From Streptomyces sp. NBC_00271 (lineage in GTDB: Bacteria > Actinomycetota > Actinomycetes > Streptomycetales > Streptomycetaceae): a stretch of DNA of 64,000 nt. Made by a program: the position numbers and the translations under genes. Under the pieces are notes generated by a model. It was not told where the DNA came from. It made no database searches and saw only the letters and a list, made by a program, of their open reading frames with translations. The stretch is taken from positions 7,564,001 through 7,628,000 of the forward strand of contig NZ_CP108070.1 of assembly GCF_036178845.1 (NCBI RefSeq), written 5' to 3'. Below, in pieces: positions 17,235-53,210 of this stretch (the stretch's first letter is position 1; each line of letters begins with the position of its first letter).

Positions 17235-18320
17235 GTGCATGCATTCTCACACGGCACTTCATCGACACCGACCGTGGTCGCGGTTCCACCGGCGCTCTCT
17301 CTCCCGGTGATCGAGTCCGCGTTTCCCCGCCAACTGCACCCGTATTGGCCGAGGCTTCAGGAGAACACACGTTCGTGGCTGAGGGAAAAACGCCTCATGC
17401 CGGCGGACAAGGTCGACGAATATGCCGACGGCCTTTGCTATACGGACCTGATGGCGGGCTACTACATTGGCGCTCCCGACGAGGTCATGCAGGCGATAGC
17501 GGACTACAGCGCGTGGTTCTTCGTCTGGGACGACCGCCACGACCGCGATGTCATCCACGGCAGGCCCGGCGCCTGGCGGAGGCTCCGGTTCCAGCTTCAT
17601 GCGGCTCTCGACTCCCCGAGGGAGCACCTGCACCACCGGGATCCCCTGGTCGCGGGGTTCGCGGACACCATGGTGCGCCTGTACTCGTTCCCGACCAGGA
17701 AGTGGAACGCGCGCTTCGCCCGGCATTTCCACGCGGTGATCGAGGCGTACGACCGGGAATTCCGCAACCGTGTCAACGGCACCGTGCCCACGGTCGAGGA
17801 ATATCTGGAACTGCGGCGGCTCACCTTCGCGCACTGGATCTGGACCGACCTTCTGGAGCCGAGCGCGGGCTGCGAACTTCCCACCGCCGTGCGGAACCAT
17901 TTCGCATATCGGCGGGCGGCGCTGCTGAGCCAGGAATTCGCGGCCTGGTACAACGATCTCTGCTCGCTCCCGAAAGAAATCGCGGGCGACGAGGTCCACA
18001 ATCTCGGAATCAGCCTCATCCATCACGAGGGGCTGACACTCGAAGAAGCGGTCCAGGACATCCGGCGGCGGATCGAGGAATGCATCACCGAATTCCTCGA
18101 CGCGGAAAAGGACCTCAACCGGTTCGCCGAAACACTCGCGGACGGCACCGTGCACGGCAAGGAATTGAGCCTCGCCGTGAAAGCGTGCCTCGGCAATATG
18201 CGGAACTGGTTCAGCTCCGTGTACTGGTTCCACCACGAGTCCGGCCGGTACACCGTCGACAGCTGGGACGACCGCTCCACACCCCCGTACGTCAACAACG
18301 AAGCGGCAGGTGAGTCATGA
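17235..18320 (+). CDS. Epi-isozizaene synthase (sesquiterpene cyclase)
   Basis: A 361-residue class I terpene synthase that cyclises farnesyl diphosphate to epi-isozizaene, the precursor of the antibiotic albaflavenone. The Mg2+ motif D99-DRHD and the NSE motif NDLCSLPKE are intact, and the C-terminal [20 protein letters not shown] matches the S. coelicolor enzyme as I recall it. GTG 17235 ([15 protein letters not shown] 7 bases upstream) gives the known length. Its stop overlaps the P450 start (ATGA). Confidence 0.95.
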
Positions 18321-45784: not shown

Positions 45785-45845
45785 GATTGCCAGGTTACGT
45801 CGGGCGTGCGGGATGTCGCGCGAAAACGAGGGCGGGCGGAAGACG

Positions 45846-47441
45846 ATGGACGTATTGCCACTGCTGTTGCTGGTCGCGGGGAGCGCCGCGGTCGCCGGGC
45901 TGGCCCGTCGCACCCCGGTGCCGGCGCCGCTGTTGCTCGTTGCGGCGGGCCTGGTCGTCTCGTACATCCCTGGAGTGCCCGGATACGAACTCGACCCGGA
46001 GATCGTGCTCCCGCTGGTGCTGCCCCCGCTGCTGTACACGGCGGCCACCGACAGCTCGTACCTCGATCTCCGGGCACATCTGCGGCCCATCGCGCTGCTG
46101 TCGGTGGGGTACGTGCTCTTCGCGACGCTGGCCGTCGGCTGGGCCACCTATCTGCTCGTGCCGAGCCTGCCGCTGCCCGCGGCGCTGGTCTTCGGGGCGG
46201 TGGTGGCGCCGCCAGACGCGGTGGCGGCCACGGCGGTGGCGCGCCGGGTGGGGCTGCCCTCGCGGATCACCACGATCCTTCAGGGCGAGTCCCTGGTGAA
46301 CGACGCGACCGCGATCACCGCCTACAAGGTGGCCCTCGCCGCCGCGGTCGGCGAGGGCGCGACCTGGGCGGGCGGCGTCCGTGAGTTCCTGCTCGCGGCG
46401 GTCGGGGGTGTCGTCGTCGGTCTCGTCCTGATGGTTCCGATCCACTGGTTGCGCACGCACCTGAATGAGGCACTTCTCCAGAACACCCTCTCCTTGTTGA
46501 TCCCCTTCGTCGCCTACGGGATCGCCGAGAAGGTGCACGCCTCCGGAGTGCTCGCGGTGGTCGTCGTCGCGCTCTACCTCGGGCACCGTGCCTGGGAGGT
46601 GGACTTCGCGACCCGGCTCCAGGAGGAGGCGGTGTGGAAGATGGTCGCGTTCGTCCTGGAGTCGGCGGTGTTCGCCCTGATCGGACTCCAACTGCCGGTC
46701 GTCCTCAAGGGCCTCGGCCAGTACCAGGGAGCGCAGGCCGCCTGGTATGCGGTGGCCGTCTTCCTGGTCGTGGTCGCCGCCCGCTTCGTGTGGGTCTATC
46801 CCGCCACCTTCCTGCCCCGGATCCTGTCGGCGCGCGTCCGGGAGCGCGAGGGGGCCCCCACCTGGAAGGGCCCGTTCATCATCGGCTGGGCCGGCATGCG
46901 CGGGGTGGTCTCGCTCGCCATCGCCTTCTCCATCCCGCTCACCGTGCACGGTGGTGCCTCCTTCCCCGATCGCAACCTGCTCCTCTTCCTCACCTTCACC
47001 ACCGTGATCGGGACCCTGGTCGTCCAGGGGCTGACCCTGCCCCCTCTCATCCGCCTGCTGAAGCTGCCGGGGCGCGACGTCCAGGCCGAGACGCTCGCCG
47101 AGGCGAACGCCCAGGCGCAGGCGTCCCGGGTCGCCGAGGAGCGCCTCGACGAACTCCTCACCGACGAGCGCAACGCCCTGCCCCCGCCGCTCGCCGACCG
47201 GCTCCGCTCGGTCCTGGAACGCCGCCGCAACGCCGTCTGGGAACGGCTCGGCGCCGTCAACCCGGTGACCGGGGAGACCGCCGACGACACCTACCGCCGC
47301 CTGTCCCGCGAGATGATCAGCGCCGAACGCGAGATATTCGTGAAACTCCGCGACCACCGCTACATCGACGACGAAATGCTCCGCACGCTCCTGCGCAGAC
47401 TCGACCTGGAGGAGGCGGCGGCCTACCGGGAAGCGGCGTGA
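45846..47441 (+). CDS. Na+/H+ antiporter, CPA1/NhaP family
   Basis: 531 residues. The first ~400 form about 12 membrane helices with the CPA1 motif VVAPPDAVAATAVARRVGLP and LVNDATAITAYKVAL (ion-binding Asp residues), plus GWAGMRGVVSLAIA. A C-terminal cytoplasmic region (about 410-531) is helical and charged (AEANAQAQASRVAEERLDEL) and likely regulatory. It exports Na+ in exchange for H+. Location next to the osmotic sigma factor sigH fits a salt-stress role, but no shared promoter is seen. Confidence 0.92.
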   Translation: MDVLPLLLLVAGSAAVAGLARRTPVPAPLLLVAAGLVVSYIPGVPGYELDPEIVLPLVLPPLLYTAATDSSYLDLRAHLRPIALLSVGYVLFATLAVGWATYLLVPSLPLPAALVFGAVVAPPDAVAATAVARRVGLPSRITTILQGESLVNDATAITAYKVALAAAVGEGATWAGGVREFLLAAVGGVVVGLVLMVPIHWLRTHLNEALLQNTLSLLIPFVAYGIAEKVHASGVLAVVVVALYLGHRAWEVDFATRLQEEAVWKMVAFVLESAVFALIGLQLPVVLKGLGQYQGAQAAWYAVAVFLVVVAARFVWVYPATFLPRILSARVREREGAPTWKGPFIIGWAGMRGVVSLAIAFSIPLTVHGGASFPDRNLLLFLTFTTVIGTLVVQGLTLPPLIRLLKLPGRDVQAETLAEANAQAQASRVAEERLDELLTDERNALPPPLADRLRSVLERRRNAVWERLGAVNPVTGETADDTYRRLSREMISAEREIFVKLRDHRYIDDEMLRTLLRRLDLEEAAAYREAA

Positions 47442-49740: not shown

Positions 49741-51147
49741 ATGTCGGTAGGCGAAGAGGTCCGTGCGGGTCAGGGCAAGCCGCAGCAGAGTCTCGGCACA
49801 TCCGCCGCGCGGAACCTGGCCACCACCACCAAGTCCGCGCCCCAGATGCAGGAGATCAGCTCACGGTGGCTGCTGCGCATGCTTCCGTGGGTGAACGTGC
49901 AGGGTGGCACGTACCGCGTGAACCGGCGGCTCAGCTACTCCGTGGGCGACGGCCGCGTGACGTTCGTGAAGACCGGTGACCGTGTGCAGGTCATCCCCGC
50001 GGAGCTCGGCGAGCTGTCCGTGCTCCGCTCGTTCGAGGATCAGGAGGTGCTCGGCGAGCTCGCCCAGCGGTGCCAGCAGCGGGAGTTCGTACCGGGCGAA
50101 GTGCTCGCCTCGTTCGGCAGCCCGTCCGACGAGGTGTTCCTGCTCGCGCACGGCAGGGTGGAGAAGATCGGTACCGGCCCGTACGGCGACGACGCGGTCC
50201 TCGGCGTCCTCGCCGACGGCGCGTACTTCGGCGAGCAGGCGCTCATCGACCCGGACGCCATCTGGGAGTACACGGCCCGCGCCGTCACCGCGGTCACCGT
50301 GCTCGCGTTGCCCCGCCAGGACCTCGAGCAGGTCGCCGAGCGCTCCGAATCCCTGCGCGAGCACCTCACGTCGCTGCGCGCGATTCCGGAGCAGCGCACC
50401 AACAAGTACGGCGAGAAGGAGATCGACCTCGCGGCCGGCCACACAGGGGAGCAGGACATCCCCGGCACCTTCGTGGACTACGAGGCCGCGCCGCGCGAGT
50501 ACGAACTGAGCATCGCCCAGACCGTGCTGCGCCTGCACACGCGCGTGGCCGATCTCTACAACCAGCCGATGAACCAGACGGAGCAGCAGCTCCGCCTCAC
50601 CGTCGAGGCGCTGAAGGAGCGCCAGGAGCACGAGCTCATCAACAACCGGGAGTTCGGACTGCTCAACAACTGCGAGTACGACCAGCGGCTCCAGCCGCAC
50701 GACGGCGTACCCAGCCCCGACGACCTGGACGAGCTGCTCAGCCGCCGGCGTGGCACCAAGCTGTTCCTCGCCCACCCGCGCGCGATCTCCGCGTTCGGCC
50801 GCGAGTGCAACAAGCGCGGACTGGTCCCCGAGAGCGTCGAGATCGCGGGCAACCGCGTCCCGACCTGGCGCGGTGTGCCGCTGTTCCCGTGCAACAAGAT
50901 CCCCGTCAGCGACACCCGTACGACCTCGATCATCGCCATGCGTACCGGCGAGGCCGAGCAGGGTGTCATCGGCCTCCAGCAGGCGGGCATCCCGGACGAG
51001 ATCGAGCCGAGCCTGTCGGTGCGCTTCATGGGCATCAACGAACAGGCGATCATCTCCTACCTGGTGACGGCGTACTACTCGGCGGCGGTTCTCGTGCCGG
51101 ACGCCCTCGGCATCCTGGAGAACGTCGAGATCGGCCGCTGGCGGTGA
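49741..51147 (+). CDS. eshA: Family 2B encapsulin shell protein with cyclic-nucleotide-binding domain (EshA type)
   Basis: 468 residues, the size of Streptomyces griseus EshA. An N-arm (about 1-60) precedes an HK97-type shell fold interrupted by a cNMP-binding domain (about 95-215: [44 protein letters not shown]). The shell region resumes with [40 protein letters not shown] and the end [16 protein letters not shown]. Such proteins assemble into ~30-nm compartments holding isoprenoid enzymes. GGGAGG precedes the ATG. It overlaps the next gene (GTGA). Confidence 0.93.
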
Positions 51148-52346
51148 CCTTCCCGACGCCGGCCGCCGTGTTTCCGCCCGATCAGGCGGGAACACCGGGG
51201 GCGAGGCGGAGTCCGGCCGAGACCCTGGACAGGCGGGGCCTCATCGGCAAGCCCATGGAGGGCGGGCCCTTGGACGACGGTGCCGCGGACGGGAGGCCCA
51301 TGGATCGGCAGGTCGCGCCCGGCTCGCTGGACGGACAGGAGGCGGCGGGCATCCTGGAGTACGCCCGGGCGTCCGTCGACCCCGAGCTGCGCAGGGCTGT
51401 CGACTCGCTGCCGGGATCCATGCGCCGGATCGCGCTCTACCACTTCGGCTGGGAGCACGCGGACGGCACCCCGGCGGCGGGCAACGCGGGCAAGGCGATC
51501 CGCCCGGCCCTGGTGCTCACCGCCACGGGAGCGCTCGGCGGTCAGCACGCGGCCGCCGTACAGGCGGCGGCCGCCGTGGAGTTGATCCACAACTTCACGC
51601 TGTTGCACGACGACGTCATGGACCGGGACACCACCCGCAGACACCGCCCCACCGCGTGGACCGTGTTCGGCGACGCCGACGCGATCCTCGCCGGGGACGC
51701 CATGCAGGCGCTCGCCCAGCGGCTGCTCGCCGAGGACTCGCACCCGGCGTCCGGGGCCGCCGCCGCCCGGCTCGCGTCCTGCGTCGTCGAGCTGTGCGAG
51801 GGGCAGCACGCGGACACGGTCATGGAGAAGCGCGGACCCGCCGAGGTCACCCTCGACGAAGTGCTCGCCATGGCCGAGGCCAAGACCGGCGCGCTGCTCG
51901 GCTGCGCCTGCGCGCTCGGCGGGCTGTACGCGGGAGCGGACGAGGAGGACGTCGACGCGCTGGACGCGTTCGGCCGGGAGGCCGGGCTCGCCTTCCAGCT
52001 GATCGACGACGTGATCGGGATCTGGGGGGACCCGAGCCGCACCGGCAAGCCGGCCGGGGCGGACCTCATCGCCCGCAAGAAGTCCCTGCCCGTGGTCGCC
52101 GCGCTCGCCTCCGGCACCCCGGCGGCGACGGAGCTCGCAGAGCTGTACGGAGTTCCCTACGAGGAAGGGGAGCTGGAGCGCACGGTGCTGGCCGTCGAGC
52201 GGGCGGGCGGCCGTGACTGGGCGCAGCTCCAGGCGGCCGACCGGATGTCCCGGGCGATGCACGAGCTGTCCCGGGCGATCCCCGACCCGGAGGCGGCGGG
52301 CGGCCTCCTCGCACTCGCGGAGTTCGTGACGCGGCGCAGCAACTGA
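51144..52346 (+). CDS. Polyprenyl diphosphate synthase, likely encapsulin cargo
   Basis: 400 residues. Residues 1-75 are Pro/Gly/Asp/Arg-rich and probably disordered. The all-alpha isoprenyl synthase domain has [10 protein letters not shown], the first Asp-rich motif D156-DVMD, the second D288-DVIGIWGD, and ARKKSLPV. It condenses IPP with allylic diphosphates to GPP, FPP or GGPP. GTG 51144 overlaps the encapsulin stop, so both proteins are made together. The disordered N-terminus fits the cargo-loading tails known for family 2 encapsulins. Later ATGs (51255, 51300) are possible. Confidence 0.9.
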
Positions 52347-52598: not shown

Positions 52599-53210
52599 AT
52601 GGGCGTGGTGATCCGGACGGCGGACGAGGGCGACCAGGAGCTGGTCACCCGGCTGCTCGACGAGGCGTTCCAGGACGACCCGGTGAGTGTCTGGGTCTTT
52701 CCGGACGCGGCGCACCGACGTGCCAAGCACCCCGGCCTGATGGGGATGTTCACCGAGATCGTGCTCGCCGAGGGCCGCATCGACGTCACGGAGGACGGCA
52801 CGGCGTGCGCGCTGTGGCTGTCCGTGCCCGCCGACGCCGGCCACGCCGACGACGAGGACGACGGTCCCGTACGGCTGCGTGAGGCCGTCGACCCGGACAA
52901 CGAGCGGGTCGAGCTGATAGGCCGCCTGACGGCCGGGATCCACCCCGCGGGCCGCGCCCACGAGTACCTGTGGATGATCGGCGTGGCGCCGGGGCGCCAG
53001 GGCGAGGGCCTCGGCACCGCGCTCGTCCGGTCGGTTCTCGACCGCTGCGACCGCGAGGGCCTGCCCGCCTATCTGGAGGCGAGCAACGCCGACAGCCGCA
53101 GGCTCTACGAACGTCTCGGCTTCGACATCACGGGGCGCCCTCTCGACCTGCCGGACGGTCCGCGGATGTGGCCGATGTGGCGCGAGCCGCAGCCCGGGCG
53201 GGGGGCCTGA
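52599..53210 (+). CDS. GNAT-family N-acetyltransferase
   Basis: A 203-residue acetyltransferase. The CoA-binding motif A is WMIGVAPGRQGEGLGTALV (about 128-146), followed by motif B EASNADSRRLYERLGFDITG. The N-terminal half carries an acidic insert (AGHADDEDDGP). The substrate is unknown. It begins 252 bases after the polyprenyl synthase and is probably a separate transcript. Confidence 0.88.
   Translation: MGVVIRTADEGDQELVTRLLDEAFQDDPVSVWVFPDAAHRRAKHPGLMGMFTEIVLAEGRIDVTEDGTACALWLSVPADAGHADDEDDGPVRLREAVDPDNERVELIGRLTAGIHPAGRAHEYLWMIGVAPGRQGEGLGTALVRSVLDRCDREGLPAYLEASNADSRRLYERLGFDITGRPLDLPDGPRMWPMWREPQPGRGA

Follow-up and report, generated by a model that had tools for sequence, protein, structure and literature searches.

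A PT-type family 2B encapsulin operon of Streptomyces whose probable cargo synthase is predicted to carry a lineage-specific N-terminal tail

Family 2B encapsulin operons were surveyed by Andreas and Giessen in 2021, and the available text of that survey gives 904 operons of the TC type, which hold a terpene cyclase, and 900 of the PT type, which hold a polyprenyl transferase (888 of these in Actinobacteria), with 165 systems holding both (PMC8346489). Because only those 165 systems have both, the PT operon that lacks a cyclase is the standard form. In such operons a shell protein with an inserted cyclic-nucleotide-type domain (CBD) is encoded near a PT, usually with no cyclase, and acetyltransferases are enriched nearby; the encapsulin-linked PTs are described as having a disordered N-terminal domain of 50–100 residues. 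For family 2 cargo in general, disordered termini are candidates for loading, and an N-terminal domain is responsible for the loading of the cysteine desulfurase (PMC8346489). Structures are available for the S. griseus family 2B encapsulin (9bhu) and for S. lydicus shells (9BIX and 9BJE). The latter are two-component shells encoded by the two shell genes of an XK-type operon, and their loop named diagnostic motif 2 is luminal and a candidate cargo contact, according to the accessible part of that report (PMC12407261).

The locus described here lies in a stretch of 64,000 nucleotides of Streptomyces sp. NBC_00271 (contig NZ_CP108070.1, positions 7,564,001 to 7,628,000), which is called the window; all features located below are on its plus strand. 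A family 2B encapsulin shell gene of HK97-type fold with an inserted CBD (49741–51147, 468 residues; NF041163, PF19307, PF00027) encodes an EshA-type protein, and it matches the NF041163 profile with 778 bits against a cut-off of 400, over profile positions 1–450 of 450. The solved chain closest to it by sequence is 9bhu, and both the S. griseus 9BHU and the S. lydicus 9BIX/9BJE shells match it over nearly the full length, with equal domain order; unlike the S. lydicus system, the window operon has one shell gene. The shell stop is overlapped by GTGA, the first four bases of the frame of a polyprenyl diphosphate synthase, the likely cargo (51144–52346, 400 residues when read from the overlapping GTG), which scores 493 bits with NF041169 (cut-off 450) and also matches polyprenyl_synt (PF00348). 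The overlap of the two genes reported in the initial annotation was thus recovered at 51144, with both proteins over their NCBIfam cut-offs. A GNAT acetyltransferase gene follows (52599–53210; PF00583). No class I cyclase adjoins the pair: the nearest of the six PF19086 matches in the genome is an epi-isozizaene-type synthase 31 kb away (17397–18320; NF045483, 633 bits, just below the cut-off of 675), which agrees with that annotation. Its view of the missing cyclase as something unusual gives way to the 900 PT operons and the 165 systems with both in the published survey, on which the cyclase-less state was rejected as a novelty (PMC8346489). The pair is of an already known, common encapsulin type, both proteins being named by NCBIfam. 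Against the PT-type operons as the accessible survey text describes them, no difference in kind was found, and the long tail discussed below is predicted here in one clade alone (PMC8346489).

By family membership, the window locus is a PT-type family 2B encapsulin operon that probably specifies an isoprenoid compartment, which supports the earlier proposal for this pairing. The reading that we prefer, with a probability of roughly 0.7, is that the shell packages the adjoining synthase, that GGPP is made, that the tail is specific to a lineage, and that the loading contact shared by the family lies in the core or the short N-terminus. The shell protein would assemble into a closed protein shell that likely packages the synthase encoded beside it; IPP and allylic diphosphates would enter and be condensed inside to GGPP (C20), and the product would then pass out to enzymes whose genes lie at other sites, so that the pair would need no cyclase beside it. 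An N-terminal tail, a lineage-specific addition, is probably present on the synthase in the lineage of the window and may aid its loading. A broader proposal combines a near-core Streptomyces compartment, loading of a GGPP synthase by contact between its core and the luminal loop, a single lineage as the origin of the tail, and a stem-loop that sets the shell-to-cargo ratio; it is rather unlikely to hold in all its parts. Orthologues at the syntenic site, some predicted to have a tail and others predicted to lack one, amount to a natural experiment, by which the loading of PTs into family 2B shells is testable through clade swaps. In addition, independence from the 2-methylisoborneol operons and the type-I GGPP synthase pattern, both set out below, narrow the purpose of the compartment.

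The family 2B shell is found over its cut-off in 147 of 150 genomes of the genus, and the PT cargo family in 114 of the 150. From other genomes, the best-scoring 80 of 113 over-cut-off PT loci were fetched, and a same-strand shell adjoins the PT in 78 of these 80. After five were dropped, the remaining 75 and the window made up a comparison of 76 loci, and the counts per 76, and per 41 or 35 for its two clades, refer to this set drawn from the best 80 of 113. Upstream of the pair, in both clades, there are a PALP-fold gene (73/76), a gene matching the one at 45813–47441 (72/76), presumably an antiporter, an RsbW-like gene (64/76, with a match under the cut-off) and a SigB/F/G-type sigma factor (60/76); downstream, again in both clades, a GNAT gene stands on the same strand in 53 of the 76 loci, at a median of about 180 nt past the synthase. 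Since these surroundings are common to both clades, the pair has mostly been inherited in place. Two further genes on the opposite strand upstream of the shell (in L088, L153 and others), which from their N-termini we take to be an Rrf2-like regulator and a globin-like gene, each occur in 23/35 short-clade loci and 0/41 tailed loci. Likewise, a conserved same-strand open reading frame after the synthase (301 residues in L129, MTGEPWAGWYRDREG...) is present in 21/35 short-clade and 0/41 tailed loci.

Regarding the domain inserted in the shell, it spans residues 114–201 (50080–50343; PF00027, 64.5 bits, and alignment to solved CNB domains) and is followed by the SrpI-like PF19307 match at residues 216–466. 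Canonical domains of this type hold a phosphate-binding Arg at the position aligned with residue 175, and this Arg, taken as the mark of a cyclic-nucleotide sensor, is absent from the window shell: the position is Trp (W175, codon 50263–50265) there and in all 76 shells compared, and the nearby Glu165 position is Asp in 46 of the 76. The window domain is accordingly predicted to be unable to bind cyclic nucleotides canonically, and a 2025 paper, in its available text and citing a preprint, states that the family 2B domain binds no cyclic nucleotide (PMC12407261). The cyclic-nucleotide gating suggested in the initial annotation, that by cAMP included, was rejected on these alignment columns and on that published statement. 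The CNB-like domain would then be a divergent relic or possibly a binder of some other ligand, and binding of cAMP or cGMP is not expected.

The synthase core carries a first Asp-rich motif, DDVMD (residues 156–160; 51609–51623), with Phe151 five residues before it, and a second, DDVIG (residues 288–292; 52005–52019), which ends in G rather than D, as in the solved homologue 3nf2. Phe151 at position -5 and DDVMD without an insertion are invariant in 31 aligned sequences. The rule published for type-I GGPP synthases, an aromatic residue at position -4 or -5 relative to a first Asp-rich motif that lacks an insertion, describes the window enzyme as far as the accessible text defines it (PMC7261888), and the product is predicted to be GGPP (C20). 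This is only a prediction, and the product may instead be FPP (C15), because a type-II enzyme given large residues at -4 or -5 made the shorter FPP according to the same text (PMC7261888), and because the model of the GGPP synthase IdsB, NF045549, gave 358 bits, under its cut-off of 475. The Streptomyces synthase 3nf2 and another PT of the same genome (L264) belong to the same fold family and also begin their core with the YHFGW segment; the latter, unlike the window synthase, stays under the NF041169 cut-off of 450 with 410.7 bits, and no shell was found in its 11-kb stretch.

A maximum-likelihood tree of the 76 synthases, built on sequence from 35 residues before the YHFGW motif, splits these syntenic, shell-linked proteins into 41 tailed members, the window included, and 35 short ones, with support of 100/100. 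The two groups were defined on sequence similarity, and tail length turned out to go with them. Upstream of the first core helix, every one of the 41 tailed-clade loci has an open frame with room for 38–147 residues, and the farthest in-frame ATG gives 21–105 residues, such an ATG being present in 39 of the 41; the corresponding ATG in the short clade gives 8–21 residues (31 of 35 have one). The short start of the short clade is a prediction from a repeated SD-ATG arrangement (GGGAGTGACCGTGACCATG and similar), since a GTG or TTG farther up would give 30–54 residues in 12 of the 35 loci and a GTGA overlap start is possible in 4. In L139, L151, L153 and L157, four of the 35, the core motif stands only 134–140 nt past the shell stop, so a tail there is impossible unless translation starts deep in the shell gene. 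Outside the genus, the PT passes its cut-off in eight genomes of the class. In four of these eight loci the shell precedes the PT (three of them have two shell matches), and all four shell-linked pairs are predicted to have a short N-terminus, the core motif lying 140–157 nt after the shell stop; for the remaining four, no shell beside the PT was found within the stretch examined.

Because short N-termini are predicted in the sister clade and in 4/4 outgroup pairs, the published N-terminal domain of 50–100 residues, as described in the accessible survey text, is apparently not general in the family (PMC8346489). On the same grounds, the 35 synthases of the sister clade and the four outgroup pairs, the long tail is unlikely to be a general loading tag. 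With some 10–20 residues before the first core helix in the short syntenic and outgroup orthologues, we infer that the shared loading contact would lie in the core or the short N-terminus; loading without a tail presupposes that the short-tailed orthologues are cargo, which is itself an assumption. Among the open-licence papers searched, no report of a tail-less PT cargo was found, and a predicted tail whose presence differs by clade at one syntenic locus appears to be a new finding. The shells differ between the clades as well. In the loop that aligns in 9bix with the S. lydicus diagnostic motif 2 (residues 366–375; 50836–50865), the clade of the window has about GNRIPTWRG, with Asn371 in 40/41, and the short clade mostly GHHVPAWRG, with His371 in 25/35. 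Likeness between the clades is 0.70 over segment 351–385 against 0.81 and 0.85 for its neighbours, and the CBD is lower still, at 0.62. This difference could mean two loading modes, and it cannot be separated from common descent because the tree has one split.

The initial annotation gave the window synthase a disordered tail of about 75 residues, and the candidate translation starts are GTG 51144, the GTG at 51168–51170 (codon 9 of the 400-residue frame) and the ATG at 51300–51302, which would yield a form of 348 residues. The ATG of codon 38 (51255–51257) is an unlikely start, the codon being AAG in L160 and ACG in L161 and encoding Thr in P0001–P0003. In favour of the tail, the overlap frame is open in the nearest relatives, L160 (S. 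olivochromogenes), L161 (S. diastatochromogenes), L162 and L164, and the indels of near relatives within codons 38–52, of 24 and 15 nt, are both multiples of three. Third-position GC is raised over the window tail frame (0.88 vs 0.73 and 0.67, p = 0.015), and in four relatives, which are not independent, p ranges from 0.004 to 0.05; over codons 2–20 of the window there is almost no such bias (0.79 vs 0.74 and 0.74), and the pattern suggests translation after about codon 20. It is a weak yardstick, as tails past the MTET start in other tailed loci reach only 0.83 vs 0.80 and 0.69. The tail pN/pS is mixed: it is 0.22 in codons 2–20, a stretch shared with the stem-loop, and 1.35 in codons 38–52, codons 21–37 having undergone no synonymous change, and the test has little power, because the control of helix codons 67–98 gave 0.93. 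On balance, translation of the window tail is probable, the open frame, the indels and the GC pattern after about codon 20 speaking for it. In 17 of the 41 tailed-clade loci, however, an in-frame stop intervenes between shell stop and core, so the overlap start is impossible there; only 12, the window among them, could start at an overlapping ATGA or GTGA, and in another 12 the frame is open with no overlap start. The sister clade is predicted to be almost tailless.

The possibility that the long tail is the loading tag of the cargo synthase, as implied in the initial annotation, and that short-tailed orthologues load otherwise or ceased to be cargo, deserves tentative consideration. It is consistent with the room for 38–147 residues in 41/41 tailed-clade frames, with the luminal loop that differs between the clades, with the preference for disordered termini in the accessible survey text (PMC8346489) and with a recurrent tail motif, ERRxPIG, whose loose form is present in 24 of 84 non-redundant tails (mean after shuffling, 0.6). 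Set against this, length and sequence vary greatly over the 84 tails, and the sister clade and all four outgroup pairs are predicted to be tailless. As a tag, ERRxPIG was itself rejected: although above the shuffles, its loose form is missing from 60/84 tails, and the window has a degenerate copy (51219–51251; consensus E-[TI]-[LP]-E-R-R-[GS]-P-I-[GAT]) with Leu for Pro, outside the 24 matching tails. The most conserved stretch, MGEFMTET, found in its strict form in 41 of 118 tailed loci at a median of 112 nt past the shell stop, looks like start-site DNA, because GGT codons, used in 23 of 36 distinct copies among those 41 matches, place GGTGAG ahead of the second ATG. MGEFMTETQQ was for this reason discarded as a peptide tag, despite a motif-search score of 499.6, where six shuffles gave no more than 131.1, and an 11-residue tail model (67/84) was set aside since it blended the start segment with the ERRxPIG motif. 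It is also conceivable, if doubtful, that the window synthase starts at ATG 51300, has no long tail and resembles the proteins of the short clade. GGGAGG precedes that ATG, as it does an ATG in L160, L161, L163 and L080, and the 348-residue entry P0004, which stands for 51 member sequences, begins there; the in-frame stops in the matching stretch of the 17 tailed-clade loci and the nearly flat third-position GC of codons 2–20 point the same way. The distance of GGGAGG to the ATG is only three bases, however, and both the three-fold indels in codons 38–52 and the GC raised over the whole tail frame, in the window and in its four non-independent relatives, argue against this start.

Two more explanations concern the enzyme as a whole. 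The synthase might merely be co-transcribed and act free in the cytosol, the shell holding another cargo, as the predicted lack of a tail in the short clade and the four of eight over-cut-off loci outside the genus with no shell in the stretch examined would allow; yet the shell adjoins the synthase in 78/80 loci of the genus (best 80 of 113), and the pairing is kept on both sides of the deep split in the synthase tree, which makes this improbable. A supply of GPP to the separate 2-methylisoborneol compartment of the genome was also considered. About 6.6 Mb from the window pair, a second family 2B shell (718 bits; G000:C1:1028066 onward, L020) is followed by an NF041167 cyclase (423 bits, cut-off 400) and an NF041943 GPP 2-C-methyltransferase (449 bits, cut-off 400), an operon that its gene content identifies as the 2-methylisoborneol type; its shell is of the same family, and its cargo is instead a terpene cyclase with the GPP methyltransferase. 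At the window locus no adjoining cyclase with GPP methyltransferase, the mark of the TC type, was found, the nearest PF19086 match being the one at 31 kb. Across 150 genomes, 63 have both PT and TC, 51 only PT, 18 only TC and 18 neither (Fisher p = 0.70), so the two systems occur independently and the synthase is therefore no dedicated feeder of the 2-methylisoborneol system. With the type-I rule pointing to C20 in addition, as far as its source text goes (PMC7261888), the supply of GPP was rejected as very improbable.

Directly 3' of the shell stop the window has an 11-bp stem-loop (51168–51195), which falls inside the tail frame if translation begins at GTG 51144. In the short clade a stem-loop at or above all 20 shuffles was seen in 20 of 31 loci, four of the 35 being too short, and it is often very strong, with 18-bp stems in L085 and L092. 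The same level was reached in 10/41 loci of the tailed set and 31/77 named tailed loci, against 8/76 coding controls, and the median z of the 41-locus set was 0.14 (control 0.22). The short clade shows a strong signal and the clade of the window a weak one, and the element may set the shell-to-cargo ratio.

Several smaller observations can be added. In one tailed locus, L166 on a contig of S. spongiae, 973 nt separate the shell stop from the core motif, and the open tail frame, rich in Ala/Gly/Pro/Ser, greatly exceeds most others in length. Elsewhere in the genome, L007 (G000:C1:8592446–8596045) encodes a cyclase of 779 residues with two PF19086 matches and GSAGFGTSAVDIG between the domains, which we take to be geosmin-synthase-like. 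From it, both of the shell genes are at a distance of about 1 Mb or more, and its GSAGFGTSAVDIG recalls the GPTGLGTSAAR of encapsulin-linked GS-like cyclases in the available survey text (PMC8346489). No match to G[LI]GT[SA]A, a pattern for a GPTGLGT-type tag, was found in the cyclases L007, L009–L012 and L020. In the window shell itself (49741 onward), SLGTSAAR in the N-terminal extension resembles the cyclase cargo motif GPTGLGTSAAR as given in the accessible survey text (PMC8346489), and shell and cargo might mimic one site.
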